From NCBI GenBank assembly GCA_033398695.1, contig CM065818.1:52050001-52114000 (forward strand): DNA of 64,000 bases. Direction: 5' to 3'. The translations under genes and the position numbers were made by a program. Under the pieces are notes generated by a model. That model did no database searches. It saw nothing but the letters and a program-made list of their open reading frames with translations, and was not told the DNA's origin. Positions 5,062 through 64,000 of the stretch are shown here, one piece after another; position 1 is the first letter of the stretch; every line of letters starts with the position of its first letter. The DNA is from Orobanche coerulescens (lineage: Eukaryota > Streptophyta > Magnoliopsida > Lamiales > Orobanchaceae).

Positions 5062-5480
5062 TGTAATACCCGGTTGTAATTCAGTCATTATCATTCAGTA
5101 ATTTCATTCGGTAATTGTCATTATGTAGTTTTTCATTTGATAATAATCATTCATCTGTGTTCACTGTTAGGAATAACTTCGAGTTGTGTATCGATATTGT
5201 TCATCTTTCAACCCTACTCGGGAATCGAGACAAGAGTATTATCTTGATTGTTGTAATTGATTCAATAGTCGATGTTGACGTTGGAGTTCATGTCATTTCA
5301 AATCTCCTTAATGTTCAAATTGTATTTTTGTTGGGCGAACTCTTGTAATCATCGCATGGAAACACCGTTTTGGAGTTTTCGCACTTCCATTTCGTGTTAT
5401 TGCTTCCCAAATATTGATTCCTATTGCTTTTATTCTCTTCCCGGGTCATTTTTCATCATTTTAGGACCCAAGGGGGGTGT

Positions 5481-5770
5481 GGGCCGTGGCACAAGGAGTG
5501 TGCGCCGCGGCACACACATTTTTCAGTTTTGGCCAAGCAGCCTGTACCGTGGGCCGCGGCTCATCCCAGCAGGGCCGCGGCACACTGCCGCGGCACACCC
5601 GTCCGGGCCGCGGCACACTCGTGTTGCAATCTTTGGCCGACCTGTCTGTACCGGGGGCCGCGGCTCATGCCAGCAGGGCCGCGGCACACTGTCGAGTCAC
5701 TGTCGCGGCACACTCAGCCGGGCCGCGGCACCGCGCGCCACAGGAGCGATTTTGGACTGTGCCACGGCAC
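5481..5770 (+). repeat. CCGCGG palindrome array in U3 of element A
   Basis: About eleven copies of GCCGCGGC or close variants, most followed by ACAC or TCAT. Centre-to-centre distances are mainly 20-21 bp (5486/5507, 5556/5577, 5590/5610, 5660/5681, 5705/5725). A larger unit of about 104 bp is duplicated: CTGTACCG plus GGGCCGCGGCTCAT occurs near 5542 and again near 5646. The GC-rich block stands out from AT-rich surroundings and lies just upstream of the TATA-like motif. Confidence 0.85.
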
Positions 5771-5803
5771 ACTCGGCTCAGGCGGCAGCACAGCGATCGG
5801 CAC

Positions 5804-5810
5804 TATAATT
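5804..5810 (+). promoter_or_regulatory. TATA-like motif in 3' LTR of element A
   Basis: TATAATT lies about 40 bp downstream of the last CCGCGG-type palindrome, the same relative position as the clearer TATA boxes of L0, B and C. It is a candidate core promoter only. Confidence 0.4.
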
Positions 5811-7471
5811 GCAGTTTTTTGTGCGGATCAACTCATTTTTTCCATTTCTTCACTTTGGTCCGAGAGAGAGGGTTTGTGGGAGAGAATCTTCATCATCAAT
5901 CACTTGAGTTCTCGTTTTTCATCATTTTCATTCGGTTGTGAAGCTCGGATTGTCGATCTAACGCGATTTCATCGGATTAAAGTACTTGGATCTTCAAAGG
6001 TAATATTCATCAAACCTCTTGGATTTCGATTTGTGTTGAGATATGATGTTTTGGATGTTAAGATCATGTCGTATGAAGTGATATACGCATGATTATGGAT
6101 ATGTTTGATTATTCATTGGATTATTGAAGGATTATTCAAGAACACTTTGAATATTGAGTTGGATTTGGGGGTATTCGATTAATCGTTGTTGTAATCACGA
6201 ATTTGAATATTCATATTGGATTATTGATCGTATTGAAGATGTTTTGTTGGTTTGAAACACTTCTTGGGGATTTGATGTTGGTATTATTGAAGTTTGGTTG
6301 TAAACAAACGAAGTTTGGCCGCAAAGTGTTCGATATAATGCCCCAAAGAACTTGGTTTAGTCGTATCGACGTTTTGAGTTCGTTATATTCGTGTTTGATT
6401 CGTATGTTGAACGGATTGTTGGTATTTGTGTTGTTCAAGGTTGTTCGAGCGACCGATATCTCAATTAGGACGTTGTTCGTGGAAGGATAATTGTCACCAG
6501 TGTTGAGTAAGTTAATTCTTACTCGGTTAAAAGGATACTCATTCTTTTTGTTGTTGTTGATTCATAATCATAACTCATTCATCATTGAATTAACCGTATT
6601 GAGACTTGTAATTATCGAATAATCACTTCATTCACGAGTAACGACGGTTCCAATCACTTCATTGAGTTATCAATCACTTCACTATTATTTTCATCTCGGT
6701 GAGTCATTCTTGACCTTGTCGAATTATTATTCATTGATATTCATTGTGGTCATTCTCGTTTATATGACCTTCTGGGTTCATATTGCGTGGCCGGGTGCGG
6801 ATGTGTGGAATTTTTAGTCGGGCACACGATGGTCATGTATTGGGTTCACCGATACATTGGACCGTGCACACGGTAACGCTTACCTCCGTGAGACTAATTA
6901 GGTACAAGGACGGGTGTGTCCGGTCATTCGTCTTGTATACTTGCACAGAACATTACGGGCGTACTATGATACTCCTCTTCAGCGTAATTCATAACTAAGG
7001 ATATTTCATAACTTCAGATATATCATGATTATGTTTTTTCAACCCTTGAGGATTGTTGTTACGTATGGCCCGGCCGTTGGGGGATTTTGTTTTCAGGTCA
7101 CGGCAAGGCAAAGGCACGGGAAGAGCATGTTGACGGCGATGAGTCCCAGTGATACTAGTAGGGGGCCCCAGTCATTCCGGTTATTCTAGTCATTTCAGTC
7201 GTTCTTATTTCTCTTCATTTGTATTTCCGCTGCAAATTCTGTTTGAGATGTTTATTTATTCAGGGTGGTGTATTTTATCTTCATATAAAATATACTAGTA
7301 TTCTGTATTGTCCTGGTGTATTGTACTTAAGCTCCTCATCGGAGTATTTGGTAATATAATGTGGTTCGGTACTACAATTATATTATTTAATTCATCAGTT
7401 TTCATTCGCCTGGTGAGTCCCAGTCGGGGGTCCACGGCACTGTAATATCCGCCTAGTTTGGGGGTGTTACA

Positions 7472-23925: not shown

Positions 23926-24209
23926 TGTAATATCCGGAATTTCTACTACTATTGTTTAGTATTATTTTATCCGATTTATATTGTACAGCATGGAATCTGT
24001 ACAGTATGGATAAAATAAATGAAGGACTACGACACCTGTATTGGTATTATTACCGCACTTGGTTGACAGTTGTATTGGAATACATTGTGTGTCGGGCTTA
24101 TCGTATGAGAATATTGTTTGAAGATGTATATGTATTCAGTATGCCGTATGTTCGTATTCTGCATGTCGAGACATTAGACAAGAGTAGCTGAAAATGGCTA
24201 AGTATAGCC

Positions 24210-24705
24210 TTATCAGCGCGCGCTAATATTCATGCATAGCGCACGCTAATGTGCAGGTTTAGCGCACGCTACAGGGATAGGTTAGCGAAAGCTAGTGCAG
24301 AACAGCTCAGAGGGAATTTACGTGTGGACCCGGCCACTTTCGGCGCACGTGCCGACGAGGTCAACAGATGTTTATTTTGAAGGGTTAGCGCACGCTAATA
24401 CATATTGTTAGCGCACGCTAACATCAAATTGGTCCAAAGGGAATCTTATCCTAGTCAGAGCTATCGGCGTGTGGACCCGTATTCAGATCATACAGACAAA
24501 CGAGTCAACTATGAGTAGTGCACGCTATGATCGGACACTAGCGTATGCAAAATAGAGGAGGTTACATATGTTATTGCATGGGCATTGCGTACGTAAATCA
24601 TTGTATGCAGTAAGGCAGTAGCCTCTGGACTGCGATAGCGCACGCTAACAAAGACAGTTAGCGCACGCTAAACGTATGACGTATGTTAAATGAAGATGTT
24701 AGCGT
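24210..24705 (+). repeat. AGCGCACGCT palindrome array in U3 of L0 5' LTR
   Basis: Ten-base near-palindromes AGCGYRCGCT start at 24215, 24238, 24261 and 24284 (each 23 bp apart), at 24387 and 24410 (23 bp), and at 24637 and 24660 (23 bp). Degenerate copies occur between these and near 24678-24705. The 13-bp spacers between palindromes are not conserved. Confidence 0.9.
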
Positions 24706-24722
24706 ACGTTAATAATGTAAAG

Positions 24723-24735
24723 TATATATATATAA
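24723..24735 (+). promoter_or_regulatory. TATA box of L0 5' LTR
   Basis: TATATATATATAA directly downstream of the palindrome array; transcription would be expected to begin about 30 bp further on. Confidence 0.65.
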
Positions 24736-24828
24736 GTGCAGTTGGCCATTATTCGTCATTTCCATCCATTTCTTCATGTGAACCGATAGAGAGAGTCCTG
24801 AGAGGTATTTGAGGTTCCCAAACATTGA

Positions 24829-24833
24829 GAGAT
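24829..24833 (+). other. Target duplication of B, left copy
   Basis: GAGAT, matched by GAGAT at 55073-55077. The L0 3' LTR has a single GAGAT at 61071. Confidence 0.92.
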
Positions 24834-27231
24834 TGTAACAGCCCAAAAACAGTGGCTATTACAGTGTCGTGGACCCCTACCGGGACCCACCAGGCGATAT
24901 CACAATATACATTTATAATCTGACAACGTGGCACCGTACCACAATATTTATCAAAACCCCGGTGTGGAGTATGAGTTATTCATGTCTTTAATACGAGCAA
25001 ACATACACAGGATCCAAATTCGGTACAGACCATATGACGATGGGCAGTACCTAACAAATTTTAGTACATTCATCCGACACAAAATAAAATGAAAGTCACA
25101 ATAAAACATAACCGAACAACCAAAAGACTCGGGCCCCCCGAAATAGCATACTTCAGAACCCTCCGTCGCCATTGTGCTCCTCCTGTGCCTTGCCCTTTCC
25201 TCGCCCTGAAATACAAGTATTTCGCCCCAAACCACAGGGTCAGCTATACATGATAATAATTATCATGACATTATACAATTCATATATATATATATACTGA
25301 TCTCAAAGAAAACCATCGACTACTGAATATACCCCGAAGGCGTATAAACAATCAGTCCCAACTGTCGAACATAACCAAATATACGAACGACCATATAATA
25401 TGGCTCAAGACGGATGTCACAGTACGCCCGATCCGGAAATGTGTCCATGCACATGTCCACCCCGTATACGGAATCCAAAATATACGTGGGACGATGTACC
25501 TAATTAGCCTCACGAACTACGTCTCATGTGCACGATCTAAATGCGGAAAACATCCACGCATGATCATCAAGTGCCCGGATAAAAATCCTACACATAACCA
25601 ATCGGCGCGCAGATATGACTTCAGAGATGTCACGATACAACATGACAACGAAACTCAACGAATTACACTTTTACCAAGGAATCGAACAACTCACCGAAGT
25701 GTCAACAAAGCTCAAAAGGACTAACGGTAACAAGGACGGTAATTTCGGGTATATCATCCCCAACACCATGACAATACGATCAAGGGTATCACCATATCAC
25801 AAATCATAGATTATCAGAACATTTCATACACACGAAACGCATAATAATCACAAGAATTCAACCATCATTATAACCAAGCAAGATAACTTGCCTCAATTCC
25901 GTAGATGAATAATCCTTCTTTGAATGGTCAAACGAACGGTATCCTCATCTAACAATACTCACGTGAACAAGCAACCTTGAATGAAATGTAATTCATTCAA
26001 CAACACATTCATACGATAACGGTATTATTACATAAATAATATTCGTAAATTTACTTGAATAAATCAATTATCCTATTGATCACTTTAATGTTCTTATTAC
26101 AAATCATCGTATGTTTATCATGTTCATTCACATATTCTAACATTAATGTCAAATACTTGATGTCTAGTTTATCATCAATGTAATATCGTGAAAATATCTT
26201 TTCAAATCATCGACACTTCCAATTACGATATCAGTTTGTGTTTAATTACGTTCTTCATTATTTTACCAACGATTACATTCAAAACTTGATTACTATATGA
26301 AACATAAGTTTAAGTTTTTAGTGAACTAAGAACATCATCTTAATTTACGTCTCTTAACACGCACGGATTAATGAAATGGAATTCGGCTACTCCTCTACCG
26401 CATTTGTATCATCAAATTCAACACAATCCTCTTAAGAACATTATCAACCTATTAATGTAGTGATTAACACCCTTTAACGAAATCGATTAATTTGAACATA
26501 TGAAGATTACAACTTCCTTCTATCAACATCCATTGTTTTACTTTTGAAGAATTTATTAAAAGCCTAGTTATATCATTGTATACTTGAAATTTTTGAAGTA
26601 ACTTCATCCCATCTAGCGAAGATCATCTTCAAAGGGTTAACATAATCTTTCAAACAATTTTATTACAAAGGTTTTAGAGGCCAAAAATCATGGTTCCATA
26701 TTACCTTCAAGAATCAATTGAATATTCAATACAAATTTAACATTTCTCACATTTAATCATTAAGGATATCATCCCTAACATGTTCCTAGTGTTGAGACTA
26801 TAATCAACTTCCGATTATCATGTTATACATCAGGTTTTATGTATATCATTATCAACACAATCGCATTATGAAGTTATTTACATCAAGAAGTAACACTAAT
26901 ACCCTCAATGTTAATCTTCACTTAGTTTGAGCATGATTCAATTAACTTATCATGTTTACACTAGTTTAAACTAACATTATGTGAAGTATTTATCTACTAA
27001 CATCATCATAAGCATGGAATTGATATGAGTTAAAGAAAGACCAACCTCAAAATGAAGAACAACACCAACACTTCAAGGGATACACTTCAATCTCTAACTC
27101 TCCAAGTCACCAATCAAGTGCTGAAGCTCCAACACAAGTTAGAAAGGCTTAGAAACGGAGTTGGAAGGGAAAGGAATCGTTTCTCAGTTGGGAGGTTGAA
27201 AGGGTCGAGTAGGAAATGAATGGCAAGTCAT

Positions 27232-27242
27232 ACTTTTATAAT
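27232..27242 (-). promoter_or_regulatory. TATA box of B 3' LTR
   Basis: The minus strand reads ATTATAAAAGT, immediately downstream (in element sense) of the palindrome array. Confidence 0.65.
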
Positions 27243-27254
27243 CTGAACTCGGCA

Positions 27255-27582
27255 TTACGTACGTTAACGAAAGTGGTTAACGTACGTTATAGCCCTTACG
27301 TACGTAATCTTATGATCATTACGTACGTAACCAATTTCATCAGATCTTTCTGCCTCAAAACACGCAATTCGTTACGTACGTAACTATATAGCTATTACGT
27401 ACGTAATAGCCGTTGACTTGGCTGTCGCGATCGACTCCCGACCACCTACCCCCGCTCGGCCCCACCCGCCGAAAGGCGGACTACCGGTGGATCTCCCGCA
27501 TTACGTACGTTAACGTATGGATGTTACGTACGTAAGGCGACATACATAGCGTACGTTAAGAAGATAGGTTAACGTACGTTAA
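27255..27582 (-). repeat. ACGTACGT palindrome array in U3 of B 3' LTR
   Basis: Palindromes TTACGTACGTAA or AACGTACGTT have centres at 27260, 27283, 27301 and 27324 (steps 23, 18, 23), at 27377 and 27400 (23), and at 27506, 27529, 27552 and 27575 (23, 23, 23). Spacers differ. The B 5' LTR copy is at 54568-54896. Confidence 0.92.
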
Positions 27583-34868: not shown

Positions 34869-35072
34869 TTAGCGTGCGCTACGTACTCTACGTAACGTGC
34901 GCTAAGCCGGCCTGTTAGCGTACGCTATCGTATAAGACTAGCGTGCGCTAGCCACGAACTGACAGTTTGAATCGGCTGATACATAACGTACGTTACGTAC
35001 GTATTGTGCGTTAACTCAACCCCAATAGCGCACGCTAATTTACAAGTGTTAGCGTGCGCTAACCTTGCATGG
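34869..35072 (-). repeat. Second palindrome cluster of C 3' LTR, downstream of TATA
   Basis: AGCGTGCGCT-type palindromes with centres at 34875, 34898, 34921 and 34944 (23 bp each), then ACGTACGT forms at 34989 and 34998, and a pair at 35041/35065. The copy in the 5' LTR is at 51752-51945. Confidence 0.88.
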
Positions 35073-35745: not shown

Positions 35746-35757
35746 AGAAATGGCTAT

Positions 35758-36055
35758 TAGCGCGCGCTAGTCCCTGCTCGTAGCGTGCGCTAACAGCTCA
35801 CTGACTTAACTGTACTCAACACTTAGCGCGCGCTATGCACATACCTATAGCGTGCGCTAAGGCGTTGACTCGGCTTTTCCCGAAAGCCATCCAGGTACAT
35901 CCCGACACGATCCGACAAGGGTCCCCCGGCCAGATCTCACCTACCGCACGTCTCAATCAATTTAACCACGCATAGCGTGCGCTAATGATCCTCTGTAGCG
36001 TGCGCTATTGAGTCTATGTTAGCGTACGCTACACATAGCCGATAGCGTGCGCTAC
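35758..36055 (-). repeat. AGCGTGCGCT palindrome array in U3 of C 3' LTR
   Basis: Palindrome centres at 35763 and 35786 (23 bp), 35829 and 35853 (24), and 35978, 36001, 36025 and 36048 (23, 24, 23). Variants include AGCGCGCGCT and AGCGTACGCT; spacers are unrelated. Confidence 0.92.
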
Positions 36056-50724: not shown

Positions 50725-53087
50725 TGTAACACCCCGAGATATTCGGAATAATTACAGCGCCGTAAACCCTTTAGATAAGGATTTACAAGGCTAATTTTAA
50801 AAGAAGTGTAAAAATAATCCAATCGAACAACTGAAGTTCAAATACAGATTTGATTCAACCGATCAAACGAGTTAACTTGTACAACCATATCAAAATGACC
50901 TCATTAAAACAGACGTACTCGAGTACTAAATGAACCAAGAAGACAAATCACAATAACAATAACATCAATCACATCACTGAACCAAATCATCGTCCTGTCG
51001 GTACTGTGGTTGCCTCCCCGCTCCTCGGCTACCTGAACATCAAAACAATGTCCACCCCCAAAGGGGTTAGCAACACAATGCTAGTACAAGTATCATAATA
51101 CAATAAATCATCAATGCATCATAAAACATGCAAAACGGACTTCCGCCACCGGAATCCAACGATGCGAATCCTCACGATTCCATCAACAAAATACAGGGTA
51201 ATCCAGCGATCCAGCGCCCTTGGTATAGATCCCCATGATGATCCCGTCGGACCAACGCATGGTGGAAAACCCGTCCAACGATCCAGCGCCCTCAGCATAG
51301 ATCCCCATGATGATCCCGTCGGACCAACGCATGGTGGACATTCGATCCAGCGCCCTCAACATAGATCCTCATGATCCCCTCGGATCATTTATACCATAAA
51401 TCAATCAACTATGCATACACATATGCATTTCAATATGTTCATCAATACGAACAAATAACAACGAATATCGCGAGAATTTTCAGAAATACATCTCATATTC
51501 AACAATATGAACAAACCACAAGCATGATCATAGTTTCAATATAAATCGAACTCGACATATGATACTTGCCTCGAAAATGGCAAGGACGAAACACCTCGAT
51601 GATCTCAACACACTCGAAGGCCGCCTCCTTCGATCAATGTAACAAGCTCGAACCTTAACAAAAGGAATGATATACAAATCATCTCAAGTCGAACGATGGC
51701 CTAACAATTCGGTCTACGGCCGAAAAGCTCAAAATAAACTATGCTCGATCGAAGCGTGCGCTACGTACTCTACGTAACGTGCGCTAAGCCGGCCTGTTAG
51801 CGTACGCTATCGTATAAGACTAGCATGCGCTAGCCACGAACTGACAGTTTGAATCGGCTGATACATAACGTACGTTACGTACGTATTGTGTGTTAACTCA
51901 ACCCCGATAGCACACGCTAATTTACAAGTGTTAGCGTGCGCTAACCTTGCATGGCAGAATACTGCTAACAGAAAACTGGATTGAAAGGTGATGAACTCAT
52001 GAATTCTATGGTGATACAACAAGTCATTCTCAAGCATGTCATGCTAATAAGGTTTGTGGAAGTTCCATGAACAAGAGGTCTAAATATACGGATAATCATC
52101 TCAACATCATAATTCATTTTCGATCTTCAAGAAAATATTCCAAGTTCCGATTATTCCAAGTCCCAAAACATATGATTCCTTACGTAAAACATACGAACTA
52201 GGTAATATTCATATACTGGTCGATTGGTTTTGAAGATACATAACATGCTTAGGAATCCACATACTAAAAGGTTCAAAGGATCATACGATGAATAATTGTC
52301 GATACGTCAAAAGTATCCTTCTAACACATGATGTACGACTAATAACGAATATAACTGACTAGATGAACATGATCAACATCCTTTAGAACACTACTAGTAT
52401 TGGTGAAGAATCACCTACCTCAAGGTAGTGAAGAACACGGAGGAAATCGAAGCAATCCAACACCGAAGGCTTGAACACCAATCTCCAACGATGTACGATC
52501 TTCAATCACGAGCTAGGATGTTGATATGGAGTGTTTAGGATGAAGGAAGTTATGTTCTAAGTGTAATAATTCGGGTACTGGGAGAAGAAAGAACTGAAAT
52601 CACGAATAGGATGCTGTCCTATTTATAAGAAATGGCTATTAGCGCGCGCTAGTCCCTGCTCGTAGCGTGCGCTAACGGCTCACTGACTTAACTGTACTCA
52701 GCACTTAGCGCGCGCTATGCACATACCTGTAGCGTGCGCTAAGGCGTTGACTCGGCTTTTCCCGAAAGCCATCCAGGTACATCCCGACACGATCCGACAA
52801 GGGTCCCCCGGCCAGATCTCACCTACCGCACGTCTCAATCAATTTGACCACGCATAGCGTGCGCTAATGATCCTCTGTAGCGTGCGCTATTGAGTCTATG
52901 TTAGCGTACGCTACACATAGCCGATAGCGTGCGCTACATGCGCAGAATTACAATTTGTAAATCACATACATGAAATCATACGCTCGACAACATCGGATTA
53001 TGAAATACAGAGAATAATACTGAGATCAAGTACAACGATTACAATATCACAAGTTCCAAATACAATTCAGAAATCTCGGGTATTACA
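50725..53087 (-). repeat. 5' LTR of C
   Basis: 2363 bp, partner of 33838-36205. Palindrome array at 52640-52936, TATA box at 52618-52627, downstream cluster at 51752-51945. About thirty differences from the 3' LTR were noticed; one of them (51738-51752 versus 34855-34870) is a block replacement. Confidence 0.93.
52640..52936 (-). repeat. Palindrome array in U3 of C 5' LTR
   Basis: Same arrangement as 35758-36055, with all ten-base cores conserved between the two LTRs. Confidence 0.9.
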
Positions 53088-53092: not shown

Positions 53093-55072
53093 ATCAAGGG
53101 TATCACCATATCACGAATCATAGATTATCAGAACATTTCATACACACGAAACACATAATAATCACAAGAATTCAACCATCATTATAACCAAGCAAGATAA
53201 CTTGCCTCAATTCCGTAGATGAATAATCCTTCTTTGAATGGTCAAACGAACGGTATCCTTGTCTAACAATACTCACGTGAACAAGCAACCTTGAATGAAA
53301 TGTAATTCATTCAACAACACATTCGTACGATAACGGTATTATTACATAAATAATATTCATAAATTTACTTGAATAAATCAATTATCCTATTGATCACTTT
53401 AATGTTCTTATTACAAATCATCGTATGTTTATCATGTTCATTCACATATTCTAACATTAATGTCAAATACTTGATGTCTAGTTTATCATCAATGTAATAT
53501 CGTGAAAATATCTTTTCAAATCATCGACACTTCCAATTACGATATAAGTTTGTGTTTAATTACGTTCTTCATTATTTTACCAACGATTACATTCAAAACT
53601 TGATTACTATATGAAACCTAAGTTTAAGTTTTTAGTGAACTAAGAACATCATCTTAATTTACGTCTCTTAACACGCACGGATTAATGAAATGGAATTCGG
53701 CTACTCCTCTACCGCATTTGTATCATCATATTCAACACAATCCTCTTAAGAACATTATCAACCTATTAATGTAGTGATTAACACCCTTTAACGAAATCGA
53801 TTAATTTGAACATATGAAGATTACAACTTCCTTCTATCAACATCCATTGTTTTACTTTTGAAGAATTTATTAAAAGCCTAGTTATATCATTGGATACTTG
53901 AAATTTTTGAAGTAACTTCATCCCATCTAGCGAAGCTCATCTTCAAAGGGTTAACATAATCTTTCCAACAATTTTATTACAAAGGTTTTAGAGGCCAAAA
54001 ATCATGGTTCCATATTACCTTCAAGAATCAATTGAATGTTCAAGACAAATTTAACATTTCTCACCTTTAATCATTAAGGATATCATCCCTAACATGTTCC
54101 TAGTGTTGAGACTATAATCAACTTCCGATTATCATGTTATACATCAGGTTTTATGTATATCATTATCAACACAATCACATTATGAAGTTATTTACATCAA
54201 GAAGTAACACTAATACCCTCAATGTTAATCTTCACTTAGTTTGAGCATGATTCAATTAACTTATCATGTTTACACTAGTTTAAACTAACATTATGTGAAG
54301 TATTTATCTACTAACATCATCATAAGCATGGAATTGATATGAGTTAAAGAAAAACCAACCTCAAAATGAAGAACAACACCAACACTTCAAGGGATACACT
54401 TTAATCTCTAACTCTCCAAGTCACCAATCAAGTGCTGAAGCTCCAACACAAGTTAGAAAGGCTTAGAAACGGAGTTGGAAGGGAAAGGAATCGTTTCTCA
54501 GTTGGGAGGTTGAAAGGGTCGAGTAGGAAATGAATGGCAAGTCATACTTTTATAATCTGAACTCGGCATTACGTACGTTAACGAAAGTGGTTAACGTACG
54601 TTATAGCCCTTACGTATGTAATCTTATGATCATTACGTACGTAACCAATTTCATCAGATCTTTCTGCCTTAACACACGCAATTCGTTACGTACGTAACTA
54701 TATAGCTATTACGTACGTAATAGCCGTTGACTTGGCTGTCGCGATCGACTCCCGACCACCTACCCTCGCTCGGCCCCACCCGCCGAAAGGCGGACTGCTG
54801 GTGGATCTCCCGCATTACGTACGTTAACGTATGAATGTTACGTACGTAAGGCGACATACATAGCGTACGTTAAGAAGATAGGTTAACGTACGTTAAGTAC
54901 TATAACAAGCATAAATGGAATTCTCCCAATATCACCCAACAATTAATATAGTATGAATGACTATGATTCCAACTTAATATAATTCGTCGATACTTGCTAC
55001 AACATCACAGATATGGTGCGAAAATACTCAACTTCAATCATAAAATACAATATTAAAGGCGAGGGTATTACA
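53093..55072 (-). repeat. 5' LTR of B, portion right of C
   Basis: Continues the B LTR from ATCAAGGGTATCACC; matches 25779-27758 almost base for base. It ends GGGTATTACA next to TSD GAGAT (55073-55077). Includes the ACGTACGT array (54568-54896) and TATA box (54546-54556). Confidence 0.92.
54568..54896 (-). repeat. ACGTACGT palindrome array in U3 of B 5' LTR
   Basis: Copy of the array at 27255-27582, with the same spacing. One core has changed (TTACGTATGTAA near 54612). Confidence 0.9.
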
Positions 55073-57698
55073 GAGATGATGATCTTTAACAAGATTAAGG
55101 TGGAGAGCATGGATTAAAGCCTTGGAAAGGAGTTCAATTGTTCTTCTTCTTGGTTCATCTATACCAGGTAATTTCGTATCCCTTTGATAGTGCTTCATTT
55201 TAAAGGATGATTACTTGTGAGGAAGCGAGTTGGATTATCTTGTGATGATGTTATATGAGATTTAATGCGATGTTTATAAGAGTTTTCGAATGTTAATTAA
55301 GATTCTCCATACTTTAAGAATTGTGTTTCGTTTAACCCGATGAAGGATGGATTTCTGAAGTATGTTGATTTCATATGAATCATGATATAAGGTTGTATTC
55401 CAGATTAAGTATGATATGATCCTTGTTATCGGGTTGGTCTGATTATTGATGTTGTCGTTGATATCTTCTTCATGATGATATATACATCGGGCTATGTAGT
55501 TTTGAATGTCATTTCGGATATTTCATATTCTTGAAGAACTCTTGAATAATATGATATGATTATTATGTAGAGGAGATGTTGGTGTTTTGGATATGAATGT
55601 GGGATATTCGTATCTAGAGCTAAGATATGTGTTTTGATATAATATTCGTATAAGAACACGAATATGATTTCGAGTATGGTGATGAGATTGAATTTGGAAA
55701 AGTTATTGTTAATCTTGGAGCATGATTTCCTTTTCATTCGTATTTGTAGTCGCAAGGTGATAGTCGATACTTTTAAAGCATGCAACTGTACAGCATTAGC
55801 GGACGCTAAGCTTGATGGCTAGCACACGCTAACGGGAGCGACTTAGCGCACACTACGATAAGTGATTAACGTGCGCTAAGTAGGCAGACAGTGCAGTATT
55901 TTCATGTTGTGGTTGTGAATTCGTCCTGGTTTGAGTTGGATTGTTCAGACTTATGTTTAACCGAGATGTCATAGAACCGTTGGGTTTGTGGATTGGTTAT
56001 ATCGATTGTTGATTGTTATCGAACTTGTTGTTTATCAATTATTGTAATAGGTTGAGATTATTGAGGAAAGTTATTACTTTCTGAGTTTATAATATTTAAT
56101 GAATGGTTTCCGTTTCCTTCATTTATAATTCATATAGCAATGTTTATAATTGTAATCACAGGAGATTTGAGATTATAAATTGTATTCAAGTTTTGGGAAT
56201 TAAATCATAATGTATATGATTTACATTTGTTATTGGCAAACGTGATATCGAGGATACATCGTGATATAGATGAATATATAAATTATCTGCAATCCGTGAT
56301 ATTTTGGACCATCGAGTATTGAGGATAATGGTTCGTGATGGTTTAGACATTGAGATTGCTCTCGAAGGACTCGGAGCAAGTATTTTAATCATTTTTGTCA
56401 TTTGTGTCGATCATGTTGTGATACATGCGTGTATCGTTGTTGTCATGCATTATGTATCATTGTTATATGCATTTATGCATTGTTGTTGTATGTCCACCTC
56501 GTGTTGGTCCGACAGGATCATTGGGGGATCTATGCAAGCGTGCGCTGGATCATCGGACAGGTTTTGCACCACAGGTTGGTCTGACGGGATCATCATGGGA
56601 TCTAGGCAGTGAACGTTGGATCATCGGATTACCATGTGTTGTTATTGTGCATATGTATATTATGGGTTTGCCATAAGTATACATTGTTGTTATTGATGTG
56701 AGCATATTGACATTGTCGTATGAGTATGCATTTGTAGGTCTTGTGTTAGGACCATGTCCGTATGTTGTGTTGATCTGATCTTGGATTAGAATGACGTGAT
56801 TTCGTCTTGCATTTCATATCTTGAGGTATGTTCCGTATTTCCTTTGGTATTTGTCTTTTGATGGACAATCGATTATCGTATTGGGATTTGATGATGTTAT
56901 CTGATGGATCAAATTGGTCAGAGCCGGTATTTTTCCGTATCATGAGTTAGTGATGATATTCTGATAGTCTTGAGTATTGTTTAAGGAACAATACAGATGT
57001 TAGGTTTGAGTTTATTGGTTAATCGAGATTAAGAGATGTACAATATGATAATGGTTATTTTGATGAGGATTATTCAAGTAAGTAAAGTTATGGCGGTAAG
57101 ATTACATTGGTCGTATTCTTACTTAGTATTTTCATTGGTATGTAATTATTGACGGGATATGATGGTTATAATTGTTGGATATTATGGCTGACCCCATCGT
57201 GGGCTTTCTTTTTAGGTTCTTGGAATATCAAGCTTGTAGAGGTCGTGGAGAGATGAGCTTCCCGAAGGATACTAGCTAAGGCATGTATTTGTGTATTGAG
57301 TTTCCTTATCAGTCCTTGTATTCCGCTGCTAGAGTATTTTAATTGTTTGTCTTTTTCCGCTGTGTGAGTATTTTTAAATGACCTTTTGGTATATGGTAAC
57401 TTAGGTTACTTTGGTAATCATTTCTAAACTATTTTGTCGGTACGTGTAAGAGATAGCTTAATGTATGTTTCCAAACTGTTGAGTTCTGGCATTTTGGGCC
57501 TTATGGTTTCAAATGAGATTTTTACGACGGTTTTGATAAACGGATTTTATTAAGTCTTTGAATGTTTTTTAAAAGGCAGTAGTGTCGTTAGCCTCTTAGG
57601 CGTTTGTAAATGTTTGCGAAAATTTCCTTTAGCCTTGTGGGTTCCATCTCGGTGCCCACGGCGCTGTAATATTCCCGGTCGGATCTGGGGGTGATAGA
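55073..57698 (+). repeat. 5' LTR of L0, second part
   Basis: Resumes with GAGATGATGATC, continuing the LTR broken at 24833, and ends GGGGGTGATAGA; the terminal CA expected for LTRs is GA here. Near 55797-55878 lies a second palindrome cluster (centres 55802, 55825, 55849, 55872: steps 23, 24, 23). Near 56495-56635 a roughly 65-bp repeat related to that of C occurs. Compared with the 3' LTR, 28 bp are missing near 55125. Confidence 0.87.
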
Positions 57699-60169: not shown

Positions 60170-60454
60170 TGTAATATCCGGAATTTCTACTACTATTGTT
60201 TAATATTATTTTATCCGAGTTATATTGTACAACGTGGAATCTGTACAGTATGGATAAAATAAATGAAGGACTAAGACACATGTATTGGTATTATTACCGC
60301 ACTTGGTTGACAGTTGTATTGGAAGACATTGTGTGTCGGACTTATCGTATGAGAATATTGTTGGAAAATGTATATGTATTCAGTATGCCGTACGTTCGTA
60401 TTCTAGATGTCGAGGCATTGGACAAGAGTAGCTGAAAATGGCTAAGTATAGCCT

Positions 60455-60955
60455 TATTAGCGCACGCTAATATTCATGCATAGCGCACGCTAACATGCAG
60501 GTTTAGCGCATGCTACGGGGATATGTTAGTGAACGCTAGTGCAGAATAGCTCAGAGTGAATCTACGTGTGGACCCGGCCACTTTCGGCGCATGTGCTGAC
60601 GAGGTCAACGGATGTTTGTTGTGAAGGGTTAGCGCACGCTAATACATATTGTTAGCGCACGCTAACATCAGATCGGTCCAAAGGGAATCTTATCCTAGTC
60701 AGAGCTGTCGGCGTGTGGACCTGTATTCGGGGCACACAGACAAACGAGTCAACTATGAGTAGCGCACGCTATGATCGGACACTAGCGTACGCTAAATAGG
60801 GGAGGTTACGTACGTTATTGCATGGTCATTGCATACCTAAATCATTATATGCAGTAAGGCAGTAGCCTCTGGACTGCGATAGCGCACGCTAACAAAGACA
60901 GTTAGCGCACGCTAAACGTATAACGTACGTTAAATGAAGATGTTAACGTACGTGA
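60455..60955 (+). repeat. AGCGCACGCT palindrome array in U3 of L0 3' LTR
   Basis: Palindromes start at 60459, 60482, 60505 and 60528 (23 bp apart), 60631 and 60654 (23), and 60881, 60904, 60922 and 60945 (23, 18, 23). The last group ends in AACGTACGTT forms. The 23-18-23 pattern is also that of the first four palindromes of B. Confidence 0.92.
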
Positions 60956-60966
60956 ATAATGTACAG

Positions 60967-60977
60967 TATATATATAA
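60967..60977 (+). promoter_or_regulatory. TATA box of L0 3' LTR
   Basis: TATATATATAA about 12 bp after the last palindrome. Confidence 0.65.
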
Positions 60978-62026
60978 GTGCAGTTGGCCATTATTCGTCA
61001 TTTCCATCCATTTCATCATGTGAACCGATAGAGAGAGCCCTGAGAGGTATTTGAGGTTCCCAAACACTAAGAGATGATGATCTTTAACAAGATCAAGGTG
61101 GAGAGCATGGATTAAAGCCTTGTTCTTGAAGTTATTCATGATTCTTGGAAAGGAGTTCAATTGTTCTTCTTCTTGGTTCATATATACAAGGTAATTTCGT
61201 ATCCCTTTGATAGTGCTTCATTTTAAAGAATGATTACTTGTGAGGAAACGAGTTGGATTATCTTGTGATGATGTTATATGAGATTTAATGGGATTGTGAT
61301 AAGAGTTTTCGGATGTTAATTAAGATTCTCCATACTTTAAGAATTGTGTTTCGTTTAACCCGATGAAGGATGGATTTCTGAAGTATGTTGATTTCATATG
61401 AATCATGATATGAGGTTGTATTCCAGATTAAGTATGATATGATCCTTGTTATCGGGTTGGTCTGATTATTGATGTTGTCGTTGATATCTTCTTCATGATG
61501 ATATATACATCGGGCTATGTAGTTTTGAATGTGATTTCGGATATTTCATGTTCTTGAAGAACTCTTGAATAATATGATATGATGATTATGTATAGGAGGT
61601 GTTGGTGTTTTGGATATGAATATGGGATATTCGTATCTAGAGGTAAGATATGTGTTTTGATATAATATTCGTATAAGAACACGAATATGATTTCGAGTAT
61701 GGTGATGAGATTGAATTTGGAAAAGTTATTGTTAATCTTGGAGCATGATTTCCTTTTCATTCGTATTTGTAGTCGCAAGGTGATAGTCGATACTTTTAAA
61801 GCATGCAACTGTACAACATTAGCGCACGCTAAGCTTGATGGCTAGCGCACACTAACGGGAGCGACTTAGTGCATGCTACGTTAAGTGATTAACGTGCGCT
61901 AAGTAGGCAGACAGTGCAATATTTTCGTGTTGTGGTTGTGAATTCGTCCTGGTTTGAGTTGGATTGTTCAGACTTATGTTTAACCAAGATGTCGTAGAAC
62001 CGTTGGGTTTGTGGATTGGTTATATC

Positions 62027-62690
62027 TGTTGTGGGAAAATCCCTCACAATATGCCGCAAGTGCACGGTGTCAACAAGTAATAAAGTGATAAGTAAAGTAT
62101 CGTTCCCTCGAGGACTGATTTCACTAAGTACCAAAATTTAGTCAACTCACAATTTTATTTGAAGAACAATTAAGTAGAGTTTATATCTAAACTAATTGCA
62201 GAAAATAAATAATAGTAATAATAATAATAATAATAATAATACTAATAAGGGGTAGGATTATGATTTTCACCTCAAACAATCGGGAATGATATTTATTCGA
62301 TTCAATTCACTCTTATTCAATTGATTGTAAGCCAGGAATTCCTAAATTATTCTAAAGCCTTTCCCAAGGTCGATAGAAAATACTACGAATTACTAACTCG
62401 ATATATCCCTATTCGAATCAGATAATTAATAGCTAAAACAGTTCAAGAATTCCCACACTAACAGGCTTCACAATTCGCATGAGTATATCCCTATCTCACG
62501 AAAATTATGATTCATCTAACAAGAACTATGCCTAAATTTCATCTCCCGAATCCATAAAGACATTCAAAACAAATTAACTGTTGGCCAGACAATTAAAAAG
62601 CATTAAGAACAGTAAGAAGAATCCAATTCAATAGAATAACGTGTAAATCGAAATAATAATAAATAATCAAACCGTCATGAAATTGGCTAC
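62027..62690. mobile_element. Element F: unrecognised repeat-type insertion, truncated by G
   Basis: Begins TGTTGTGGGAAAATCCCTC right after GGTTATATC of the L0 LTR, where the other L0 LTR continues with GATTGTTG, so this is an insertion. CCGCAAGTGCACGG and AGTATCGTTCCC are words I associate with repetitive LTR or leader sequences in plants, without being able to name the family. It contains a (TAA)n microsatellite and no coding motif. Its far side is cut by G. Confidence 0.5.
62207..62246. repeat. (TAA)n microsatellite
   Basis: About 12 imperfect units of TAA/AAT inside F. Confidence 0.9.
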
Positions 62691-64000
62691 TGTAACACCC
62701 CCGAAACCGTATGGGAATATTACACGCCGTAAACCCTTTCCGCAAGGATCTACCAGGCTAAACGTCCATAAACAACCAAATACTTGCCCGGCCAGGGTCA
62801 AACAATATAATAATACAGACCGTTAAGGTCACTTACACATAAACACACAGACCGATGAGGTCACACAACTCTATCAACAGGACTGACTAACAACATTACC
62901 CACACAGGGTTCGAAATACGATACAACGGAAGACTGAATCAACTCTAACAATACAAATAAACTCTACCAACTCTCAACTCTTGATTAGTATCGCAGCTCG
63001 TCATCCCCTTGTGACAATCCTGTGACTGCTCCCCTGAACCTGCATGTACCTGGACGCAAAACAAACATCCACCCCCCGAATACTCCGGGGTTAGTAAAAC
63101 TCCACTGTTTTACTAGTGCAAGTATCAAACCATACGAAATGTAACAAACAAATAGCAACTACGAATTTAATACAGAAATCAATTATCAAAATGTTCCCGA
63201 GAAGTTTTAGAATTTCGAACTCAAGTAAGAGATATTTGAAAAGGAACACATCATCTCGGGGATTTTTAAAGCAGAAATTCTTTTGGATCTCGAGTCCCAA
63301 TTTACAAAACCCTTTTCGTAAACATTAGGGCCTTAGCCCGATTCTCGTTTCAAAGCATACTAAATAATATATCATTATGAGTCCGAGATCCATATTTAAA
63401 ATGTTACCCGAACAATCACTGCTACACGATCATTGTTCGTACACATCATGTACCGAACTCCAGAGGCCTCGACGTACCTTACCCGGACCACACACACTGT
63501 TCGTACACATCATGTACCGAACTCCGGAGGTCTCAACGGACCCTACCCGGCCACACACACTGTTCGTACACATCATGTACCGAACTCCGGCGGCCTCAAC
63601 GGACCCTACCCGACCACAACATCGTTCGTACACATCATGTACCGAACTCCAGAGGCCTCGTCAGACCCTACCTGGATCACACACCTTGTCCGTACACGTC
63701 ATGTACCGGACTCCAGAGGCCTCGTCAGACCCTACCTGGATCACACACTTTGTTCGTACACATCATGTACCGAACTCCAGAGGCCTCGTCAGACCCTACC
63801 TGGAACACACACACATCTACACGACACAATTCATAATCATTAAATGTCAAGTCATTCCATATTACACTGAAATGTACAATCAAGTATGTAAACCAAAACA
63901 ACACAAATATCATGATCATCACAACGACTCTTAACCAACATAACACACATTCGGTACACAATACATTGAACAACCACGTGTACAACCATCTCATATGTAC
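62691..64000 (-). repeat. Element G: chromovirus-type LTR (minus strand), runs off the window
   Basis: The plus strand begins TGTAACACCCCCGAAACCG and then GGGAATATTACACGCCGTAAACCC, which parallels the start of the C LTR (TGTAACACCCCGAGA, GCGCCGTAAACCC). On the minus strand this is the 3' end of an LTR. It includes a 63-bp tandem repeat at 63435-63813. No coding motif is visible; the element body lies beyond 64000 if it is complete. Confidence 0.75.
63435..63813. repeat. Six-copy 63-bp minisatellite in G LTR
   Basis: Units begin GTTCGTACACATCATGTACC at 63435, 63499, 63562, 63624, 63687 and 63752 (periods 62-65 bp). The core GTACACATCATGTAC is itself nearly palindromic. The last three units resemble each other most (TCGTCAGACCCTACCTGG). 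Confidence 0.92.

Follow-up and report, generated by a model that had tools for sequence, protein, structure and literature searches.

VANDAL DNA transposons have an anti-silencing system, VANC, in which an element-encoded protein binds short tandem motifs in the non-coding parts of the element. STAT tetramers, which are animal factors, are built on two palindromic dimer sites about two turns apart that are read by a dimer of dimers. A closer parallel comes from Sireviruses (Ty1/copia). In its passages on repeated motifs, the work of Bousios et al. 2010 (PMC2829016) describes them as palindromic and CpG-rich, with many copies per LTR, located in its upper half shortly before a conserved TATA box; they vary between elements and have the core CGG-CCG in all but one, and additional copies precede the ENV gene. 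Palindrome clusters of the Sirevirus LTR cis region (PMC4728375) are characterized in passages of later papers as variable and as hot spots for small RNAs (PMC5311732, PMC10760457).

The window, which is the whole 64-kb stretch that we analyzed from the 3.65-Gb assembly of Orobanche coerulescens, consists mostly of nested LTR elements. A MatK copy on a small contig of this assembly shares 92% identity with Orobanche hederae and 83% with Castilleja, as would most likely be seen in a broomrape, and nineteen contigs are of chromosome size, in line with n=19 in Orobanche. Three LTR families of the window (L0, B, and C) each have eight or more copies of a palindrome per element, placed in the upper LTR half before a TATA-like box, which is how the Sirevirus text delimits a repeated motif. 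The CGG-CCG core is different: our two main motif classes (classes 1 and 2, below) have CG-YR-CG, and only TTACGGCCGTAA contains CGGCCG. Also, the Sirevirus motifs lie on Ty1/copia elements, whereas B and C are Ty3/gypsy (a further element, L016, is excepted by its PPT/LTR junction), and neither a fixed pitch nor a grouping into pairs or tetrads is mentioned in the Sirevirus passages, whereas here we find a 23-bp pitch and grouping in even numbers. As in VANDAL elements, the motifs are short, tandem, and non-coding, and change with the family; an element-encoded protein binds them there, and none turned up here among the ATG ORFs of at least 200 amino acids in B. The sites are like STAT tetramer sites in being dimer pairs at a fixed distance; we claim no sequence relation.

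The first-pass annotation considered the arrangement undescribed. Sireviruses are already known to carry palindrome arrays before TATA (PMC2829016), so that part does not stand; but we found no printed account of fixed pitch, even grouping, or letter change at fixed geometry in the open-access literature that we searched, where the Sirevirus work alone came near. Four site strings gave no match there that was evidently about LTRs, judging by the excerpts that matched.

Elements and arrays in the window

L0 inserted first, followed by B, C, and D, with junctions at window positions 24834, 33838, and 36254. The two LTRs of an element are ~93–94% identical in L0, 98% in B, 98% in C, and 97% in D.

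23926-24833 and 55072-56009 (interrupted copy), and 60170-62032, forward strand: LTRs of L0
27758-24834, reverse strand: 3' LTR of B, a gypsy element inside an LTR of L0
36205-33838, reverse strand: 3' LTR of C, a gypsy element inside an LTR of B
inside C: D, a copia element
window start to 7471, forward strand: E1, a further gypsy element, with its 3' LTR at 5062-7471

Gypsy domains are clear in B and C, where gag, RT, RNaseH, and integrase were sought in gypsy order. Chromo scored 16.6 bits in B and 21.1 bits in C, under the cut-off of 25.1, and is unlisted for E1. The candidate chromovirus lineage for these elements is Tekay. The interior of L0 (56010-60169, ~4 kb) has no ATG ORF of at least 200 amino acids, and L0 looks non-autonomous. 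A 64-bp tandem repeat in six copies lies at the window end (63434-63814).

The arrays and TATA-like boxes are as follows.

24214..24711, forward: U3 array of the interrupted L0 LTR copy, mainly TAGCGCACGCTA, some TWACGTACGTWA
24723..24734, forward: TATA-like box of L0, 11 bp past the last site
55774..55878, forward: downstream cluster of the interrupted L0 LTR copy, by the LTR end, partly decayed
60458..60955, forward: U3 array of the other L0 LTR copy, 14 sites at 9/12 or better in runs of 4, 2, 4, 2, 2; TATA-like box at 60967
61797..61901, forward: downstream cluster of the other L0 LTR copy
27255..27581, reverse: U3 array of the B 3' LTR, TTACGTACGTAA/TAACGTACGTTA; TATA-like box at 27241
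54569..54895, reverse: array of the B 5' LTR, identical in kind; TATA-like box at 54555
35758..36054, reverse: U3 array of the C 3' LTR, TAGCGYRCGCTA; TATA-like box at 35746
34870..35061, reverse: downstream cluster of the C 3' LTR, a tetrad and further sites
52640..52936, reverse: U3 array of the C 5' LTR; TATA-like box at 52628
51752..51943, reverse: downstream cluster of the C 5' LTR
5481..5791, forward: another palindrome, GCCGCGGC(ACA), arrayed in the matching U3 place of the E1 3' LTR, before TATAAT at 5804; steps mostly 20–24 bp within units

At 9/12 or better, 14 sites precede the TATA-like box in L0, 12 in B, and 9 in C. To see how regular this position is, we counted by hand the 22 LTR families with class-1 or class-2 motifs, after a scan that took gaps of 6–45 bp with a permissive TATA pattern; second family copies were dropped, along with hits that fell within an array or on its wrong side (two each in L013 and L028, one in L016). 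In 12 of the 22 families, a gap of 10–14 bp separates the array end from a TATA-like box. Among the remaining 10, the gap is 18–20 bp in three, 33–39 bp in three, and 3 bp in one (L023 at 5137), and a TATA-like box was not found in three (L001, L002, and L013).

The first-pass annotation had placed arrays directly before TATA boxes. This is borne out by the 12 families at 10–14 bp but does not describe L0 and C fully, because both hold second clusters downstream. In particular, the C cluster that had been read as a promoter array (34871-34949) belongs to 34870-35061, which sits ~700 bp further downstream in the LTR; the promoter array of C, at 35758-36054 on the minus strand, ends 11 bp from its TATA-like box. 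The other positions hold, apart from two readings: the L0 site at 24284, given as AGCGYRCGCT, reads AGCGAAAGCT, which is outside that pattern, and the B site at 27548 is AGCGTACGTT rather than ACGTACGT.

A WRKY-type box, RGTCAAC, occurs in 8 of 16 U3 array blocks (window and L003-L030), 13 times forward and once in reverse. Its density is 1.85 per kb in array blocks versus 0.34 in 10-kb pieces.

A 12-bp oriented site, its pitch, and its grouping

The array is real and not confined to three families, as had been supposed. AGCGYRCGCT with at most one mismatch occurs 58 times in the window versus 1.88 expected, and none of 100 shuffles reached 58. The same 10-bp core is present in 12 of 24 unselected 10-kb pieces of the genome; the first 19 pieces (190 kb) have 61 ten-mers versus a mean of 1.2 over ten simulated sets. 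The repeating unit is a 12-bp near-palindrome, TARCGYRCGYTA, plus an 11-bp spacer, rather than a 10-bp palindrome: in the 24 pieces, a T precedes the 10-mer at 99% of 96 sites, although the search did not demand it, and the spacer columns hold just 0.01–0.15 bits.

Across the whole genome, we compared exact copies of each motif with those of its mirror control. There are 1,694,025 copies of TARCGYRCGYTA (control 1,058), 170,680 of TTACGTACGTAA (control 255), 184,551 of TTACGGCCGTAA (control 83), and 118,483 of TGCCGCGGCA (control 1,346). Exact matches to the pair AGCGYRCGCT-N13-AGCGYRCGCT number 291,540, versus 0 for the mirror control. Bacterial and archaeal genomes gave 0 matches to the pair pattern, and we took one match in an IMG/VR contig to be chance.

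The 23-bp spacing was confirmed: 45% of the places that lie 23 bp to either side of a perfect 12-mer match at 9/12 or better, versus 1% beyond 200 bp. Among the matches listed for one contig, adjacent steps of 12–35 bp fall at 19–24 bp in 45 of 46 cases for TARCGYRCGYTA and 20 of 22 for TTACGGCCGTAA, and at 20–24 bp in 20 of 20 for TGCCGCGGCA. The 18-bp step is indeed common to L0 and B.

Nor are the sites strict palindromes. When class-1 sites are read in LTR orientation (16 blocks, second copies of L0 and C included), the central dinucleotide is CA in 80, CG in 25, TA in 16, and TG in 5 of 126. Because the centers are mostly CA, the sites are oriented one way relative to the promoter. This also bears on whether the arrays act as RNA. 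U3 lies at the 3' end of the RNA, where neighboring palindromes could pair and either feed siRNA or serve the element's RNA. Z-scores were negative in all seven folded array stretches (-1.28 to -4.16), and the Sirevirus hot spots for small RNAs noted above are palindrome-rich LTR regions, as far as the passages cited there go. However, the CA centers break perfect self-pairing, and adjacent class-1 sites have reverse-complementary centers in only 2 of 63 pairs, versus 5.4 expected if they were independent, so pairing is not favored. RNA pairing also does not need a spacer of near-constant length, and one family (L024) has hybrid sites. We consider a hairpin or small-RNA signal unlikely.

The arrays are not open-ended, as first described, but are grouped in pairs and tetrads. 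We hand-picked 27 arrays, one per LTR family or position, and scored them at 9/12; steps of 20–25 bp make up 187 of their 212 steps between 16 and 34 bp. These families are related, so the arrays are not independent trials, and we also thinned them to one array per related group (17 arrays). The numbers of runs of each size are

all 27 arrays: 22 of one site, 56 of two, 2 of three, 38 of four, 2 of five, 1 of six
thinned to 17 arrays: 12 of one site, 41 of two, 1 of three, 23 of four, 2 of five, 1 of six
earlier automatic count, duplicate copies included: 45 of one site, 95 of two, 14 of three, 37 of four, 2 of five, 1 of six

Runs of at least two sites number 99, of which 95 are even; in the thinned set, the figure is 65 of 68. 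Under a geometric model, the 27 arrays should contain 17.5 threes and 10.6 fours. Threes are rarer in the automatic count too, less starkly than in the hand-picked set.

Helical phasing between units would favor bound proteins. With 66 gaps of at least 41 bp (shorter gaps excluded), we saw phasing at 10.7 bp (P ~0.0035), and it was weaker with 77 gaps of at least 26 bp (P 0.01). In the set with one array per related group it had disappeared (P 0.23 and 0.38), and we do not claim it. This loss slightly lowered our confidence both in the explanation that we prefer and in the geometric-code reading, which are set out in the last section.

Conservation between families and changes of motif

Most pairs of LTR families conserve the sites far more than the spacers. 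In four class-2 pairs, palindromes are 83–90% identical and spacers 37–45%.

B and L014a: palindromes 116/129, spacers 87/194; gap columns 5/328
B and L023: palindromes 103/120, spacers 75/204; gap columns 16/340
L014 and L023: palindromes 107/129, spacers 83/193; gap columns 16/338
L012 and L014: palindromes 108/130, spacers 81/192; gap columns 44/366

The contrast is smaller in three class-1 pairs among L013, L014, and L018 (0.77–0.85 versus 0.56–0.68), and is 0.79 versus 0.46 for C and L023, 0.70 versus 0.45 for L0 and L024, and 0.95 versus 0.76 for E1 and L031; palindrome columns in these comparisons were marked by a motif in either copy, which leads to a bias toward palindromes. The earlier claim that the spacers are unconserved, and that this is no simple decayed tandem repeat, thus survives. 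A decayed tandem repeat or satellite that includes a palindrome by chance would fit the short 23-bp arrays reported by Tandem Repeats Finder, as well as the larger repeats that enclose arrays in L030 and L013. But the spacers are nearly information-free while the sites are conserved, and in L0 and L024 the motif varies site by site while length is kept, so we give it hardly any credence.

Within one young subfamily, palindromes and spacers are equally conserved (67/72 versus 136/150; 68/72 versus 134/148), as expected without protection after insertion. Similarly, we compared the two LTRs of single insertions (L0, ~2 kb of B, and C). Changed positions in palindromes were 11/360 at non-CpG and 18/180 at CpG positions; elsewhere they were 102/5201 and 36/423. 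Non-CpG change is, if anything, commoner in palindromes (3.1% versus 2.0%). Since the sites are kept between families and unprotected after insertion, selection acts on elements that are still transposing, rather than through upkeep of old copies by the host.

CpG positions change 3–4 times faster than others between LTR pairs, which suggests that CpGs in these LTRs are methylated. Each class-1 or class-2 site contains 2–3 CpGs, and a repressor or methyl-CpG reader of the host might sit on such CpG-rich arrays and keep the elements off. The CpG content and the fast CpG change would both fit. A harmful platform should vanish from transposing elements, though, yet the arrays are kept between families and recur with other motifs in relatives. 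We regard a silencing platform as improbable. The first-pass annotation had proposed an enhancer or a silencing platform; of the two, the enhancer fits better and silencing less well, because copies decay unprotected after insertion while families keep the sites.

A motif-free scan for repeated palindromes in the window and the 24 pieces found 27 arrays (second LTR copies included; these are not the 27 hand-picked arrays) and none in three shuffled sets. There are four classes of motif.

class 1: TAGCGYRCGCTA
class 2: TWACGTACGTWA
class 3: TGCCGCGGCA, in E1, L031, and L015
class 4: TTACGGCCGTAA, in L013 and L029

Classes 1 and 2 grade into one another. The palindromes TGCCGCGGCA and TTACGGCCGTAA have like places and a like pitch to the main motif, with steps within units of 20–24 bp in class 3 and 21–23 bp in the class-4 arrays of L013. 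In the sister LTRs L0 and L024, the four distal sites are in register with equal spacing and different letters; the hybrid sites of L024 have one half from class 1 and the other from class 2. We built a tree from the integrases of 11 elements, and in it E1 (class 3) groups with L018 and L013 (class 1). This group is nested in a clade with class-2 elements (support 95, inner nodes 30–81) and lies apart from the other class-1 elements. The integrase region of E1 is 86% identical to that of L018 and 84% to that of B. At least two changes of letters are needed to explain three states on this tree, with place and pitch alike. Site-by-site replacement was not seen between E1 and its class-1 relatives, whose LTRs align over only the first 54–201 bp and differ in the array block.

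Such changes are what might be expected if the elements encoded a DNA-binding protein that recognizes its own LTR, with motif and protein co-evolving as in VANC: close relatives differ in motif class, and place and pitch remain alike. But in B, the only ATG ORFs of at least 200 amino acids that we found are gag/pol (smaller or spliced ORFs are still possible), and the motifs extend to other lineages. L015 (4203-4535) has class-3 TGCCGCGGCA arrays between pol and the 3' LTR, and L025 (2200-2500) has a decayed array of the same class in that position; this is another gypsy lineage, with 25–41% identity to the window elements by tblastn. Also, in L016 (4140-4770), there are 11 sites at 10/12 or better versus at most 5 in 300 shuffles, and its junction, AGGGGGAG-AT-TA, is one base off the Sirevirus twelvemer AGGGGGAG-AT-TG. 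By this PPT/LTR junction, read in a single LTR, L016 is a putative Sirevirus-like copia element; if so, the code is common to copia and gypsy elements. Sharing of the same sites with a Sirevirus-like LTR, and of the TGCCGCGGCA class with a second gypsy lineage, would favor a host factor over an element factor, and we think an element-encoded binder quite unlikely.

Downstream of the L015 and L025 arrays are an apparent leader and a possible splice donor. These arrays are perhaps an internal promoter. Their placement recalls the extra motifs upstream of ENV in the Sirevirus passages.

A putative host activator and its meaning

Sequence patterns support sites of dimer type at a fixed pitch upstream of TATA-like boxes, with binding predicted. 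Our preferred explanation, which we consider somewhat probable, is that the arrays serve Ty3/gypsy chromovirus-like LTRs as their U3 enhancer and that a putative dimeric factor of the host acts cooperatively at pairs of sites. Each site would be bound by a DNA-binding protein of the host in dimer form, and two such dimers would cooperate at 23 bp, so that the working unit would be the site pair (a tetramer). Stacked pairs beside the TATA-like box would then recruit the transcription machinery. CpG methylation of the sites may block binding, so that only new or demethylated copies fire; methylation may also be what keeps the numerous old copies from titrating the factor away. The motif classes could correspond to separate members of a single family of host factors or to altered specificity. 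We weighed SPL (GTAC), BZR (CGTGYG), NAC, VOZ, and WRKY factors as binders, and to our knowledge none fits all of the variants.

The excess of sites, their position relative to TATA, the constraint between families, and the even-number rule count for an enhancer. The second clusters that L0 and C have beyond the TATA-like box, on its downstream side, and the departures from the usual gap in 10 of 22 families, count against it.

A wider reading seems to us possible but, on balance, doubtful. The code read by one host factor family would be geometric: oriented dimer sites at 23-bp intervals, nearly always in twos or fours, with TATA at about the next slot. Unrelated groups of retrotransposons, namely the gypsy chromovirus-like elements, the second gypsy lineage, and the Sirevirus-like copia, would each have adopted this code and, keeping its geometry, changed its letters, much like an arms race in which a single activator is contested.

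Under the preferred explanation of a host-read enhancer, the arrays offer a grammar, precise and open to testing, for a very abundant kind of LTR promoter in a large plant genome. This grammar predicts a tetrameric or cooperative factor and supplies exact bait sequences to find it, and there are natural motif swaps that leave the geometry almost unchanged. Should the factor be encoded by the host, then ~1.7 million sites pose a titration problem, which CpG methylation could solve, and such a solution would tie silencing directly to promoter logic.
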